Below, piece after piece: positions 8,325 to 43,145 of a stretch of 64,000 nucleotides of DNA; position 1 is the stretch's first letter; each line of letters opens with the position of its first letter. The position numbers and the translations under genes were made by a program. Source of the DNA: Aurelia coerulea (lineage: Eukaryota > Cnidaria > Scyphozoa > Semaeostomeae > Ulmaridae). The notes under the pieces were generated by a model. It was given only the letters and a program-made list of their open reading frames with translations. It did no database searches and was not told where the DNA came from. Location of the stretch: the NCBI GenBank assembly GCA_039566865.1, contig CM076957.1, positions 12,409,896-12,473,895 on the forward strand, in the 5' to 3' direction.

Positions 8325-9860
8325 AATTTCTTAAGGAGGAGCTCTCTCAATAGATAAACTAATCGAGGAAAGAGCAGCCCCTGTACTAAAGCCTATTATT
8401 TTATAGAAATAACGTCTTTAGTTCATTTGAAGATTGTAGAAATGTCCAGAGACATTTTAAACCTGGAAATTTGTGAAGAATATATAAGATTTGAGTTTAC
8501 GAAGAAAAATGAAAACTGAAGGAGATTGTTTGATGACATCAGTAATGCTGTTCCAGGATTTGGTGCCTGTATATCTAACAGATCTTAAACCATATTGCAA
8601 GGTATTTTTTACGAGTCATAAAAATATCACGTTAAGAAGCCTGCCTTGTATCATAACGATGAAAAAATGTCAAGGTTTCAAAAAAATTGTGGAAAAAGAA
8701 AGCAGAAATCTTGTTGACAGATTCATATACAAGAGTAAGCAGCTTTAAATCAAATAAATCATGTAACTTTAAGGACAAGTCCGGGGTTGGTATGATTGAT
8801 GATAAAATACGAGATAATACTGCAATGTATGATACTTTTTCCACTACTTTTTTGCCTTGTCCTTGTGAAATTACATATTCAAATAAGCAATTTGAGCGAA
8901 GTGACGTCATATCGCGCAAACGAAAACGAGGCTGTGGGATTGTTTTTTTCGCCTCTTTATCATAGCAAGCCTTTTTATCGTGTTCTCGTGCTATTTTCAA
9001 TGCATGAGCACACAATAAAGAGGCTAGCAGCGATTAAAAGGCGAAAAAACAATCACACAGCCTCATTTTCGTTTGCGCGCTATGACTTCACTTCGCTCAA
9101 ATTGCTTATTTGAATACGTAATTCCACAAGGAGAAGGCGAAAAATAGTGGAACAAAGTATCATACATCATTCAAAGCAGTATTATCTTGTATTTTATCAT
9201 CAATCATACCAACCCCGGATTTGTCCTTTGAAAATGTTTAAGTCGGAGAAAATTTGAGTAGGTGGAGATGTAAAATTTTTGAAAGCAATAGCTCTGGCAA
9301 CTTTCTTTTGAGGGAGATAAATTGGTTTAGTATGGGTGTCATAAGTAAGACCGCAGACAATGATTCCATACTGGAGAAAAGAGGAAAATAAAGAGTTATA
9401 TAAAGAGACTAGAACACTAGTTTATAGAAGATGCCTTACTTTGAAAAATATACCACAAGTTCTTGACAGTTTCTTGGAATGTTCACTTAAATGATACTTC
9501 CAGCTTAGATTTTCATATGAAAGGAGACCAAGGAATTTGACATATTTAGTTTGTTTTACATATTGATTACCAATTTTTTATATTGATGCTGTCAATTTTG
9601 TAGAGAGTGACAAATAACAAAGTTTGTTTGAGCTACATTTGAAGCAAGTTTGTTAGCATCTAGCCACTTTTTGACATGTCTGAGCTCTTTGTTCACCACG
9701 TTTTGAACATTAGCAAAACTGTGAGATTCAAAGTCAATGTTTGTGTCATCAGCAAAGAGATAGAAGGATAACTTGGAAGATGAGTTGGGAAGATCATGTG
9801 TCTGACCTTCCAGTGAGGGTTGTGCATCTCTGTAATGAGTCAAAAGTTTACCCATAATGC
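8325..9860 (-). pseudogene. EEP-LINE fragment (same family as 37177-44177), interrupted by a MITE
   Basis: The minus frame 9855-9592 carries the RT motif YLFADDTNI followed by the thumb segment ELRHVKKWLDANKL. After the foldback at 8773-9226 the LINE resumes with LHDLFDLKLLTLVYESVNKI and HRYDTRQAS. The 3' UTR block near 8330 (AATTTCTTAAGGAGGAGCTC) matches the 3' UTR of the LINE at 37386, confirming family membership. Several frameshifts and stops show that it is dead. The frame 9015-8632 fuses LINE and MITE sequence and is not a real protein. Confidence 0.75.
8773..9226. mobile_element. Foldback MITE, intact-arm copy
   Basis: Starts GGACAAGTCCGGGGTTGG and ends with its near reverse complement. 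The arms stay complementary for about 140 bases and the central part (GCGCAAACGAAAACGAGG with its complement) is also inverted, so the whole 454-bp element can form a hairpin. It sits inside a minus-strand LINE between TTTAA and TTTGAA, a possible short TSD. A related copy lies at 15265-15510. Confidence 0.85.
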
Positions 9861-15149: not shown

Positions 15150-16715
15150 AATTTTTTTATTTTTCATTTTAAATTATTTATACACGAAATCCCTTCAGCT
15201 CTAATACTACATAAATAAAAGTTTTACAAAATTAATACCATACACATATGAAAAAGACTTAGAAGGACAAGTCCGGAGCCGGTACGACCGACGACAAAAC
15301 ACAAGACAAAACCGCCACGAATGACGCATGACACATCCCCCCACTGCCCACCCTCTCCCCGCGAAATCACTCACCCAAATAAGCAACGCCCATCCGAACA
15401 CGCAACCCCACAAGGAGAAGGCGAAAAATAGCGGAAAAAAGCACCACACATCACCCACAGCAGCACCATCCCGCATCCCGTCATCAATCACACCAACCCC
15501 GGACCCGTCCTTTAAAATGGCATTGCTGATCTTCCAGGGAGTCGTGTTTTAATTGGCTTTCAGCTCATCAAGTGTGTTTTAGTTGTTTTCTGAATTGGCA
15601 CAAGGTAGGAAGCTCCCTAATACTTATAGGGATTTCATTCCAGACCTTAAGAGCTGAGTAGGAAAATCCTTCTTTGGCATACTCCAGATTGTACCTCGGA
15701 ATCTAAAGATCTCCACAGAATCGCGTGGATTTTCGTTGGAATTTGTTCCAGAGATTTTCCGGCCAGAGTCTGTTCATGATCTTAAATGCCATAACGGCAC
15801 GATCAAACATGACAAGTTGCTCAACATGAAGGAAATTATTTGACCATTCTTCTTTAATCCTGGACGATTCGATCATGGAGACGGCTCTGTCTTGAAGACG
15901 TTGAAGGGATTCCTTTTTTGAATTTGAGAGGCTACCCCAAATAACAACTGCATATCGCATGTGACTTTCTACGAGAGCACGATAAACATTGCTTAACTGA
16001 GATTGTGGGAGGATGTTTTTCAACTTTTTTAAAGATGCAAGACCTCCATGAACTTTGCCTTGACAGTTTTCAATTGTTCTTCCCAGTTGAGCCCTTCATC
16101 TACAATGACTCCAAGTGATTTGGTTTTTTCACTCGTTTAATATCTGAGCCATTAAGTCTCAATGTTTCATGTATCTCGACTTTATTAGTTCTACGAGGGT
16201 GTCCAATTATCATATACTCTTTTTTTTGAGGATTGGCACTTAATTTATTTAACCTCATATATTCAGAAATATGGGTCAATTCCTCTTGAGCGTTATGAAC
16301 TAGTTCTTCAATATTCATAGATGTTAAGGTCACATGAGTATCATCAGCGTACATACCCGCCTTAGAAACTTTCCTAAATTTTTTAAAGTCATTTAGGTAT
16401 ATTATGAAGAGAAGTGGGCCAAGACAGGAACCCTGGGGGATACCACATGTAACTGTCCTAGGCCTTGACTCATAACCGTTGGCGGCACAGTGCTGCCTTC
16501 TGTTTTCGAGGTATGATTTAAACCATTCTCCGGAGAGTTCTCGAATACCGTATTTTCTCAGTTTTTCTAACAAAATCTTATGGTCAACGGTATCGAATGC
16601 CTTTTTGAGATCGAGGAATATTGCTAGATTAAATTGCTTGTTGTCAATATTCTCATACCAATAGTCAGTACTATCAATCAATGATGTTATTGTTGAACAA
16701 ATTGAAGGTTGCTGC
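15150..16715 (-). pseudogene. 5'-truncated EEP-LINE with a hyperedited-looking MITE in its 3' UTR
   Basis: The minus frame 16726-16100 carries RT motifs FLDLKKAFDTVDH, CGIPQGSCLGPLLF and MYADDTHVTL. The frame 16023-15703 continues the thumb/connection region (SRIKEEWSNNF, AFKIMNRLWPENLW). A frameshift separates the two. The 3' UTR runs to about 15150 and ends in an A/T-rich stretch like the one at 38330. The foldback at 15265-15510 lies inside this 3' UTR, so it would be transcribed within the LINE RNA. The 5' end stops inside the RT at about 16715, where it meets a plus-strand LINE head to head. Confidence 0.75.
15265..15510. mobile_element. Foldback MITE copy with pervasive T-to-C changes
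   Basis: Homologous to 8773-9226: the first ten bases are the same and the right arm aligns base for base. In the right arm (about 120 bases) I count about 25 T-to-C differences and only 3 of other kinds. The left arm shows the same direction. Because both arms changed T to C on the plus strand, the arms no longer pair fully, whereas those of 8773-9226 do. Remaining Ts are almost all followed by C. Arms are about 120 bases with almost no loop. Confidence 0.85.
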
Positions 16716-18870
16716 AGTAAAGGCAAAATCTGAGCTACTTATGAGTGCCTACAGACAAATGCGATGCAAGGCCAATAATTTGAACTCTAAAATGAAAAGA
16801 GAATATTTTTCAAATAAGATTCAGTCTTGTGCTGGGGACACTAAGGAAACATGGAAGACTATAAACCAGTTGGTGAATAAAAGGTCCAAAACTACAGAAA
16901 TCTTGTCTATTAAAAATGGCGAGGATAAAATTACTAACCCCCAAGAAATAGCTGACACTATGAATATTTTTTTCTGCAATGTGGGGAAGAACCTTAGCGA
17001 AAATATACCTAACAAAGAAAACCCTCTTCTAAATGGTGATTATGGTGAAGGAAAGACTGATTCTACTTTTCTCTTTAAGCCTATTACCACTGAAGAGGTT
17101 ATAAAAGCATGTTCCAAGATCAAAAAATCAAATGGTTCTGGCACTGATCGCATTTCTAGTCACTTTCTTAAAGTAGGTATTGAGATTTTGGCTCCTTCGC
17201 TTGCCCAACTCTTCACATTGTCTCTGTCCGTCGGCTGCTTCCCTGACAACTGGAAAACTGCTAACGTAGCTCCAATTTTTAAGCAGGGCTCAAAAGATGA
17301 TAGGTCAAATTATAGGCCTATATCGGTGCTACCTGTTGTCTCTCGTTTATTTGAGAAGCTTGTTTATAACCAGCTGTAGGATTACCTTGACAAAGACAAG
17401 CTGATTGCTCTGATCAGTCAGGTTTTCGGGCCCTTCATTCGGTTCTCACGTCTCTGTTAAAGTGCACGAACGACTGGTACTTAAACATTGATAAAGGTAA
17501 ATACACAGCTGTCGTTTACATAGACCTCAAGAAAGCTTTTGACACAGCTGACCACGATATTCCTAAGGAAGCTTAACTTCTTTGGCTTGAAAGGAAAAGA
17601 ACTTGGCTGGTTTCGCTCATATCTCACCAGTAGACGACAATGCTATAAGGTGAATGGGCGAATTTCCGCTACAGACAGTATAACTTGTGGTGTACCACAA
17701 GGTTCATGTCTTGGACCACTTCTCTTTCTGGTCTATATTAACGATCTTCCTTGTTGTTTGAAAAATGCCCTTGTATCCATGTATGCAGATGACACAAGCA
17801 TTTACTATGCCTCTGAATCTGTTTCGGAAATTAATCAAGCAGTTAATGCTGACTTAGAAGCTTTGAAAGGATGGCTTGAAGGGAATAAGTTGTCTTTAAA
17901 CGTTGCAAAGACAGAAGCAATGATTATAGGGAGTAATGGTAAGCTGCGAAAAATTGACTCTGTTGATTCAACCAAACCACACGTTAAGATTGGTTCCGAG
18001 GATATCAAGTTGGTAAAGGAGGTCAAATACCTTGGTGTTCAGGTTGACCATCAACTTAAATGGACATCTCAATTGGCCCTAACAACTAATAAGATCTCTA
18101 GAGGTATTGGTGTGTTTCGTTATGCCAAGCAGTACCTTCCTATTTCAACTGTCAAGACAATGTAGAAGAGTTTAGTGGAGCCTTACTTTAGATATTGCTG
18201 TCCTGTCTGGGGAAATGCTGGGGTGACTGCCATTGAAAAATTGCAGAAACTTCAAAATCGGGCTGCAAAACTCGTAACCAACAGTCCTTTTGATGCTACT
18301 GCTTTACCAGTTATTCGGGCGCTTAAATGGCCGACTGTCAGGGAGCTTATTGATTTTGAAGCTCAGAAAATGGTCTTTAAATCCCTTAATGGGGACGTGC
18401 CTTCTTATATGAAAGACATGTTCACGAGAGTCAACAACTCTACCAGTCGTTCTCTTAGAAACGCCGAAGTCAATCTCAGGTTGCCATTGTTAAAATCGGC
18501 AGAGGGGGGCAGAAATGTTTTGCGTACCGAGGCGCCAAGCTTTGGAACAGTCTTGGCCCTGAGATCAGAAATACTTCAACCCTGAGAGCGTTTAAAAAGA
18601 AGGTGCAACCATGAATTTCTCACCAATTCTTTTCTGTTTTCTTTCATTTATTTATGACAATTTGTAATTAGTTTAGGTTTAGGTTTAGGTTTTATAGCAA
18701 ATTTCGTTTTTATTGTAAATTAGTAGTTATTTGTAAGTTTTTAGCATGGCCCCCTGTAAATCAATTATTATTATTGAGGGGCTACCATGGGTAAAAAAGA
18801 TAAAATGAATGAAATGAAATGAAATGAAATGAAAAATGAAATGAACAAAGTTTTGAAAAGCTGATTGACA
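16715..18870 (+). pseudogene. EEP-LINE RT copy with (ATGAA)n tail
   Basis: Frames 16681-17379, 17539-18165 and 18175-18585 together give a pre-RT domain, SNYRPISVLPVVSRLFEKL, CGVPQGSCLGPLLFLVYI, MYADDTSIYY, a thumb with LGVQVDHQLKW, and the tail LQKLQNRAAKLVTNSPFDAT. In-frame stops and frameshifts (for example an extra GG near 18507 compared with the copy at 45720) make it inactive. The 3' UTR contains three TTTAGG-like units and ends in (ATGAA)n at about 18801-18845. It is 5'-truncated at nearly the same place as its relative at 38320-40375 and lies next to a minus-strand LINE. Confidence 0.8.
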
Positions 18871-34842: not shown

Positions 34843-35028
34843 TAAAAGAAATTAAACTGTTTTCATAAAAATACGTTTCGATTAAAAATCTTCATCAGTC
34901 TACAACTTTACTGGGCAGCCGAGAATTTATACAGAAGAAGTTGTTTACAAACAAAAAGTACATAAAAATGTTAAATTTACAATTAAAAGCAATAACATCT
35001 TTTCCCACTTATGCCACTCTACATAATC
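34843..35028 (-). repeat. Penelope-like terminal sequence, left arm of a 186-bp inverted repeat
   Basis: Essentially perfect inverted copy of 35115-35300, separated by 86 bases. It contains a hammerhead-like core on the minus strand and resembles the end of the Penelope-like element at 54095-54250 (shared CGTTTCGAT...AAATCTTC). Confidence 0.8.
34876..34898 (-). ncRNA. Hammerhead-ribozyme-like core
   Basis: On the minus strand CTGATGA is followed by A, a 4-bp stem GATT/AATC with a TTT loop, then GAAA. These are the CUGANGA and GAAA boxes of the hammerhead. Hammerhead motifs are known in Penelope-like elements. I did not locate stems I and III or the cleavage triplet with certainty. Confidence 0.6.
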
Positions 35029-35114
35029 TCACTTGGGGTGACTGCAGAGTTGCCAAGGTAGCCTCAAACTTTAAAACGCCTCCAATCCCTTCTCAAATTT
35101 AAAAAGGACAAAAA

Positions 35115-35297
35115 GATTATGTAGAGTGGCATAAGTGGGAAAAGATGTTATTGCTTTTAATTGTAAATTTAACATTTTTATGTACTTTTTGTTTGTAAAC
35201 AACTTCTTCTGTATAAATTCTCGGCTGCCCAGTAAAGTTGTAGACTGATGAAGATTTTTAATCGAAACGTATTTTTATGAAAACAGTTTAATTTCTT

Positions 35298-35300
<3 letters not shown>
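35115..35300 (+). repeat. Penelope-like terminal sequence, right arm of the inverted repeat
   Basis: Inverted partner of 34843-35028, followed directly by an AAT array at about 35301-35331. Confidence 0.8.
35245..35267 (+). ncRNA. Hammerhead-ribozyme-like core
   Basis: Plus-strand CTGATGA (35245-35251), stem GATT/AATC and GAAA (35264-35267). It is the mirror copy of 34876-34898. Confidence 0.6.
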
Positions 35301-41885: not shown

Positions 41886-43034
41886 TTAGAGAATTTCTTC
41901 ATTAAGGTTAGAGAAATCATGTTGGAAATATGATAGATTTTTGTAGGTGATGCCTGCATGCTTGACGATTAGAAATTGAGGGAAATGATCTGTTATTTGA
42001 GTCATAATGTTACCACTTACATTTTCATTATCTGTGATGTTAGAAAAGATATTATCAATAAGTGTGGAAGAATTCCCAGATACTCGAGAAGGATGAATGA
42101 TGTATGGGAGAAATTGTTTGGAGAAATGGAAGTTAACATAGTTTGTGGTAGGTGTGTTGGAGTTATAATTCAAAAGGTCAATATTAAAATCGCCAAGAAG
42201 AAAAACTTGTTTATTACATACAGCTGGATTGGAAAAAATTTCTTGCAGATACTCACTGAATGTAACAACAGATGAGTTTGGATGACGATAGGCACAGCAC
42301 AGCAGATAATTTTTACCATTTTTGTTTTCAACTTCAACCCAGACAGACTCAAAGTCAGTGTTATCTTTGCTAAGTTCAGGTCTAGGAATTGGAGTAAGTC
42401 CTGTCTTCACATAAAGTGCAACACCACCATTTTGACTATGAGATTGGCAGGGAAAGCAATTATAACCAGGAATTTCCACATTTGTCTTAATAGGATTATC
42501 AAAAGAGTTCCAAGTCTCAGACACACCTATAACATCAAAGTTAATTTTTGAAATTGCAAGAGTCGAGATAAGCTCATCAAAATGAAGTGAAAGACTTCTA
42601 GTGTTCATATGAAATAAAGAAAAATCTTTTCCTGAAGAATTTAGAGTTGACAAGTCCTGTAGAGTATGATAGCTTGAGTTAATATTAGAAGGTAAATGTT
42701 CATCAATATCGTAATCATCCATGTTCGGCAGGTTTGTAAGACCAGACGTTATTTCAAAAGATGGCACTGAATCAACATGAGATGGAAAATCAAAGTTATA
42801 CAAGTTTGAAAGTTCATCATTATCCAACTGACCAAAAGGAAACATGACTTTTGTACATTTCAAACAAAACCAAGGCACATCGTCATGTTCTTTTTGTAAC
42901 TGTTCATATTCCGGATTAGAAATATTGTTACATTTTATGTGGACCCAGAAATTGCAATTATTACAATAAACCAATTTTTTATGGTTAGATGTGTTCTTAT
43001 GGCAGATGCCACATGGGAAATCTGGAGGATTCAT
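41886..43034 (-). pseudogene. LINE ORF2 N-terminus: PHD finger and EEP endonuclease
   Basis: 382 aa. Residues about 8-60 form a PHD finger (CGIC..., YCNNCNFWVHIKCN, WFCLKC), a Cys4-His-Cys3 arrangement. From about residue 135 an endonuclease follows: FSLFHMNTRSLSLHFDEL, VIGVSETWNSFDN, CAYRHPNSS, LLGDFNIDLL, IDNIFSNI and ITDHFPQFLI. PHD fingers are known in CR1-like LINEs and may guide binding to chromatin. ORF2 loses its frame just after this part, before the RT. Confidence 0.85.
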
Positions 43035-43145
43035 TTGTTATTTATATGAAACTAACTGAAAAATTAAGATATATACTCATCAATCAAAACACAATAAAGT
43101 ACTGAATAGAACACAAAAAGTAGTTTATTAACCTTCCTTGGACCT

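Follow-up and report, generated by a model that had tools for sequence, protein, structure and literature searches.

How did a foldback in the 3' untranslated region (UTR) of a LINE come to have two arms that disagree with each other almost exclusively in one direction? A sequence-only reading had proposed that ADAR edited the hairpin in LINE RNA and that reverse transcription then fixed the edits in the genome. The element lies in a 64,000-nucleotide stretch of Aurelia coerulea DNA, referred to here in its entirety as the window, and has the following parts.

15155 to 16701, minus strand: 5'-truncated LINE copy with an RVT_1 domain and the hairpin in its 3' UTR; its 3' end near 15155 is common to most copies
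15565 to 15570, minus strand: tandem stop codons at the end of the LINE reading frame
15265 to 15510, minus strand: putatively hyperedited foldback hairpin of 246 nt, C-rich on the plus strand and G·U-rich on the LINE-sense strand, with 58:1 directional arm mismatches
15265 to 15384, minus strand: left arm on the plus strand, which in LINE sense is the hairpin's 3' arm and pairs with 15388 to 15510
15385 to 15387, minus strand: hairpin loop (fold prediction)
15388 to 15510, minus strand: right arm on the plus strand, which in LINE sense is the hairpin's 5' arm (fold and arm alignment)

We aligned the element's own two arms with each other, a comparison that needs no reference copy. The transition mismatches between them numbered 58 in one sense and 1 in the other (symmetric transition scoring, P value = 2 × 10−16). 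Each of the 58 is an A·C mismatch on the plus strand and thereby G·U in LINE RNA, and the edited sites split evenly over the arms of the hairpin (30 and 28). The predicted fold had an energy of −150.9 kcal/mol on the minus (LINE-sense) strand versus −40.3 kcal/mol on the plus strand. Reverting all G·U pairs to A-U brought it to about −189 kcal/mol on either strand, and the reverted arms, compared by eye, were nearly identical to the consensus of an intact foldback family, one member of which is also in the window.

8773 to 9226, no strand assigned: intact, unedited foldback family member with complementary arms and a fold of −304 to −307 kcal/mol

Against this member, about 25 of 28 differences in the right arm had been read as T to C on the plus strand; our recount gave 28 T-to-C changes among 31 substitutions, and the left arm showed the same excess, as had been claimed. 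Over the whole alignment, T-to-C changes accounted for 55 of 75 substitutions when the scoring tolerated transitions and for 45 of 69 when it was strict, both counts including short flanks and a poorly aligned stretch of the left arm. The arms were indeed complementary in the intact copy and not in the hairpin, with mismatches of 12:12 in the former versus 58:1 in the latter. In the region 8632 to 9300, the intact foldback lies within another minus-strand LINE reading frame, in its KLHDLF region (ORF list).

Next, we used the intact family as a reference. It occupies at least 40 places in the genome (the best 40 of 1413 candidates), which, apart from 8773 to 9226 itself, are 90 to 92% identical to that copy. 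From 8773 to 9226 and 20 of the other 39 listed places (21 copies in all), we derived an intact consensus, a near-perfect palindrome of 461 bp. Most of the 21 copies have TTAA, or a sequence close to TTAA, on both sides, and two intact foldbacks (L048 and L056) have flanks in common, which suggests duplication of a single locus. Scanning viral and prokaryote contigs for the arm pattern yielded 1 and 20 matches, respectively, all of them short hits at the arm end that we ascribe to chance. The inner part of the intact foldback, about 210 nt, is absent from the window element (213 gap columns in the consensus alignment).

When the consensus of 21 C-rich copies was compared with the 21-copy intact consensus in LINE sense, we found 60 A-to-G, 2 T-to-C, 2 A-to-T and 1 C-to-T differences. 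A to G thus made up 60 of the 65 differences and affected 60 of 80 As, with 0 G-to-A changes; this is the strand-specific excess on the LINE-sense strand for which a check across copies had been proposed. Among the 21 intact copies themselves there was no such strand bias (A to G 40 and T to C 33 of 334 substitutions). We also rejected the idea that inverted repeats throughout the window share a strand bias: a search for mismatch skew in inverted matches longer than 60 nt found 22 in the window, 19 of them testable, and only the intact-edited pair was skewed (16:2). Another foldback, at 34843 to 35300, has 187-nt arms that are 100% complementary, and its whole palindrome shows A·C to G·T mismatches of 10:3 (P value = 0.09).

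The changed As also differed from the unchanged ones in their neighbors. On the minus strand of the window element, a G preceded 7 of 58 edited As and 9 of 18 retained As (P value = 0.0015); in the consensus comparison, it preceded 6 of 60 changed and 8 of 17 unchanged As (P value = 0.0016), so that G is depleted 5' of the changed As by either measure. The sequence-only reading had described the retained Ts of the plus strand as almost all followed by C. This fits the right arm (6 of 7) but overstates the left (3 of 11); the overall proportion is 9 of 18, and the enrichment is significant (P value = 0.0015). ADARs have a weak 3' preference as well, with U disfavored and G favored. Depletion of a 3' U at edited sites was seen in the window element (P value = 0.024) versus a P value of 0.40 in the consensus comparison, and 3' G at edited sites of the window element gave a P value of 1.0. 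According to the accessible text of one paper, a 5' G is disfavored by ADARs in all metazoans studied (PMC9989829), and the available part of another gives an upstream G as 5.8% versus 24% in Xenopus (PMC2873906).

That the hairpin is part of a minus-strand LINE's 3' UTR was borne out: it lies about 54 nt past the stop codons at 15565 to 15570, and an RVT_1 domain match (16100 to 16738, E value = 2.3 × 10−24) lies upstream of it in LINE sense. A protein search returned 5789 RVT_1-type relatives. Copies of the LINE mostly end near 15155 at their 3' side and have varied 5' ends, as in LINEs; at 10 loci compared for target-site duplications, the longest shared flank words were 3 to 7 nt, none of them clear. 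At 41886 to 43037 of the minus strand, the window also holds a LINE ORF in which a PHD finger and an endonuclease domain are joined.

A query from the 3' region of the LINE reached 14 new places, of which 4 contain all or part of the C-rich hairpin and 10 have no foldback match. Of these 10 foldback-free sister loci, 7 had both flanks matched and were used as empty sites; their insertion site reads ACTGAAGGCTAATGGC or ACTAAAGGCTAATGGC. The corresponding positions beside the hairpin are the following.

15259 to 15263, no strand assigned: TTAGA, the apparent left copy of a TTAA target site in altered form (read from the sequence); two other copies (L096 and L102) have TTAAA there
15512 to 15515, no strand assigned: TTAA, the apparent right copy of the target site; a diverged edited copy (L083) has TTAAGGCTAATGGC there, equal to AAGGCTAATGGC of the empty sites

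Since that diverged copy, L083, retains TTTAAGGCTAATGGC beside its hairpin, the target site of the foldback is probably TTAA. The empty site in sister LINEs shows that the foldback, as a DNA transposon, landed in the LINE first. We then counted substitutions flank by flank between the consensus of edited copies and that of the empty sites. The filled and empty consensuses differed at 2 of 127 sites in the right flank and at 13 of 89 in the left. On the plus strand, 2 of 81 Ts in the LINE flanks had become C, compared with 60 of 80 Ts within the hairpin (P value = 4.6 × 10−24, with the left-flank alignment imperfect near the junction).

The window copy is one of many. The first query, consisting of the hairpin and its flanks, found at least 40 C-rich copies including that of the window (40 of 1067 candidates scored), and three queries together gave at least 52 hairpin-bearing copies of this LINE 3' UTR. 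In that count, two pairs (L076 with L093 and L095 with L105) were merged as single copies, apparently split by a later insertion, judging from their coordinates. For scoring we kept split pieces separate (54 rows) and used the 58 sites at which T in the intact consensus corresponds to C in the majority of copies. All rows in which 20 or more of these sites could be scored, 53 in number, had C at 91% or more of the edited sites. Divergence from the copy consensus was 3.2% of sites in the hairpin, 3.7% in the left flank and 2.2% in the right flank. Because the edits are common to at least 52 LINE copies, the window copy would have inherited them from an edited founder, and so the edits appear to predate the amplification of this LINE subfamily. 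Editing of the window copy alone was rejected on the same ground. The proposal of an edited hairpin in LINE RNA, fixed by reverse transcription, is therefore supported, except that the edits were not made in the window copy itself.

Seven of 10 further LINE copies end at or near the tip of the hairpin (L096, L098, L099, L100, L102, L103 and L104; hairpin positions 109 to 141), three of them stopping exactly at the loop (15386). A recount gave a P value of 3 × 10−5, which is based on a rough denominator and on ends at which truncation and later insertion are indistinguishable; L097 has an internal deletion and so falls outside the count. These ends may reflect reverse transcriptase stopping on entry to the second arm, or later insertions.

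Taken together, the strand-specific A-to-G change, the avoidance of a 5' G, the confinement to the hairpin, the unbiased intact copies, the empty site and the non-complementary C-rich arms make it the best-supported reading of these sequences that LINE RNA underwent A-to-I editing and was then reverse transcribed. We consider it very probable that a TTAA foldback entered the LINE 3' UTR, that one LINE RNA was hyperedited by ADAR and reverse transcribed, and that the resulting founder was amplified to at least 52 copies. First, a TTAA-targeting palindromic DNA transposon inserted just past the stop codon, as the empty sites and TTAA flanks show. LINE transcripts would then have borne a long hairpin, as their sequence predicts. 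The signature, context and boundaries of the changes suggest that ADAR deaminated about three quarters of the duplex adenosines in one LINE RNA. That RNA would have been reverse transcribed, with inosine read as G, and integrated. The inner part of the palindrome would have been lost before or during the editing and reverse transcription event, the foldback being either short on arrival or deprived of its core when it was reverse transcribed. The edited copy, still able to retrotranspose, would have given rise, presumably as a single founder, to the subfamily of at least 52 observed copies with essentially the same edits, of which the window element would be one inherited, 5'-truncated example. 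One could go further and suppose that the 3' UTR hairpin, pre-edited in that A-U had become G·U in the DNA, escapes double-stranded RNA sensing, dicing and re-editing and that the lineage succeeded for this reason, an RNA modification having been written into the germ line and selected; we regard this as distinctly unlikely.

Editing may instead have come in several rounds, with a partly edited founder gaining more edits in later retrotransposition cycles, which we think unlikely. Two positions speak for such a course: across the 54 rows, at 15329 and 15481, T prevails where copies are more diverged, the other, younger copies having C. Two more, 15393 and 15506, go in the opposite direction, from C to T, between the same groups of copies and are likewise diagnostic of older versus younger ones, and all 53 scorable rows are already more than 90% edited, with no partly edited copy seen among them. 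Within the hairpin, across 40 copies, T to C was found in 24 of 657 T cells versus A to G in 26 of 3304 A cells, an excess that on first inspection resembles continuing editing, but 17 of the 24 T-to-C cells fell in two columns that split subfamilies, 15506 and 15393. We read the differences among copies at 15329, 15481, 15393 and 15506 as ordinary subfamily change; a second, light round of editing among the copies is possible.

Editing of the hairpin itself is also to be set against editing in a duplex of the LINE RNA with antisense transcripts of other foldback copies, after which all later steps would be unchanged. The large intact family (at least 40 places, the best 40 of 1413 candidates) makes such partners plausible, and editing in that duplex would likewise stop at the ends of the foldback. 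A hairpin that pairs with itself, at a much greater local concentration, needs no such partner, however, and editing affected its two arms to a similar extent (30 and 28 sites), so that an antisense duplex seems quite improbable to us.

APOBEC and RIP change C to T, the wrong direction for what is seen here. This weighs against hypermutation of the palindrome at the DNA level, whether APOBEC-like, RIP-like or through repair or replication error at a cruciform, as does the lack of strand bias in 21 intact palindromes elsewhere. The changes, in addition, track LINE sense and ADAR context; thus, even though palindromes are unstable and DNA deaminases also give clustered changes of one type, we hold this explanation to be very improbable. 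Finally, a separate C-rich foldback subfamily without editing has virtually no chance of being correct. A multi-copy C-rich family does exist, but we rejected a palindromic subfamily because the arms of this family are complementary only through G·U: they mismatch 58:1 on the plus strand, and it is in LINE sense alone that the family consensus folds (−159 versus −45). In a palindromic subfamily, changes would appear on the two strands equally. Among matches to our queries, all of which contained LINE sequence, there were no C-rich copies outside this LINE.

The effects of RNA editing are commonly assumed to stop short of the genome. In the present case, an edited RNA seems to have been turned back into DNA, which then multiplied, so that marks of an RNA-editing enzyme, normally made on short-lived RNA, would now be fixed in DNA in dozens of places. 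The founder's edits, frozen in 50-odd copies, would provide a readable record of past germ-line ADAR activity and of its neighbor preference. Other genomes can be searched for the footprint by looking for LINE palindromes in which every arm mismatch is a G·U pair in the sense RNA. As for the element itself, TTAA-flanked palindromic foldbacks or MITEs are a general class, which the near-perfect 461 bp palindrome with its TTAA flanks resembles; the window element differs from that class in being inner-deleted, apparently edited and now spread by a LINE.

In a search of full-text literature that included few subscription journals and no preprints, we found no published case of LINE RNA that had been edited by ADAR and then fixed and amplified in a genome, the nearest being APOBEC marks in retrotransposons and a suggestion on CpG retention in Alus, nor does the available portion of a review on editing and retrotransposons mention ADAR-edited LINE RNA fixed in a genome (PMC5974252). 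Related systems share parts of the pattern. The proposal that editing helped Alus retain CpGs, as given in excerpts of PMC526178, likewise has edited retrotransposon RNA feeding back on the DNA of the element, but it concerns single CpG sites, whereas here the footprint spans a whole hairpin. ADAR hypermutation of Drosophila sigma virus resembles our case in that A-to-G changes are passed on by a replicating RNA; sigma virus, however, is a rhabdovirus without genomic fixation and the present element a retrotransposon (accessible part of PMC2790459). The "DNA editing" marks of APOBEC3 in retrotransposons are also a deaminase signature of one retrotransposition cycle that became fixed in the genome, but APOBEC3 acts on C in cDNA and leaves G-to-A clusters, in contrast to the A-to-G changes limited to an RNA duplex described here (available part of PMC2873906). 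ADAR hyperediting of inverted repeats in transcripts, such as Alu pairs and long hairpins, also gives, in the accessible text of PMC9989829, clustered A-to-G changes on one strand of a long duplex with a 5' G disfavored. That hyperediting is confined to RNA, whereas the changes in this hairpin are part of the genomic DNA, and at least 52 LINE copies have inherited them.
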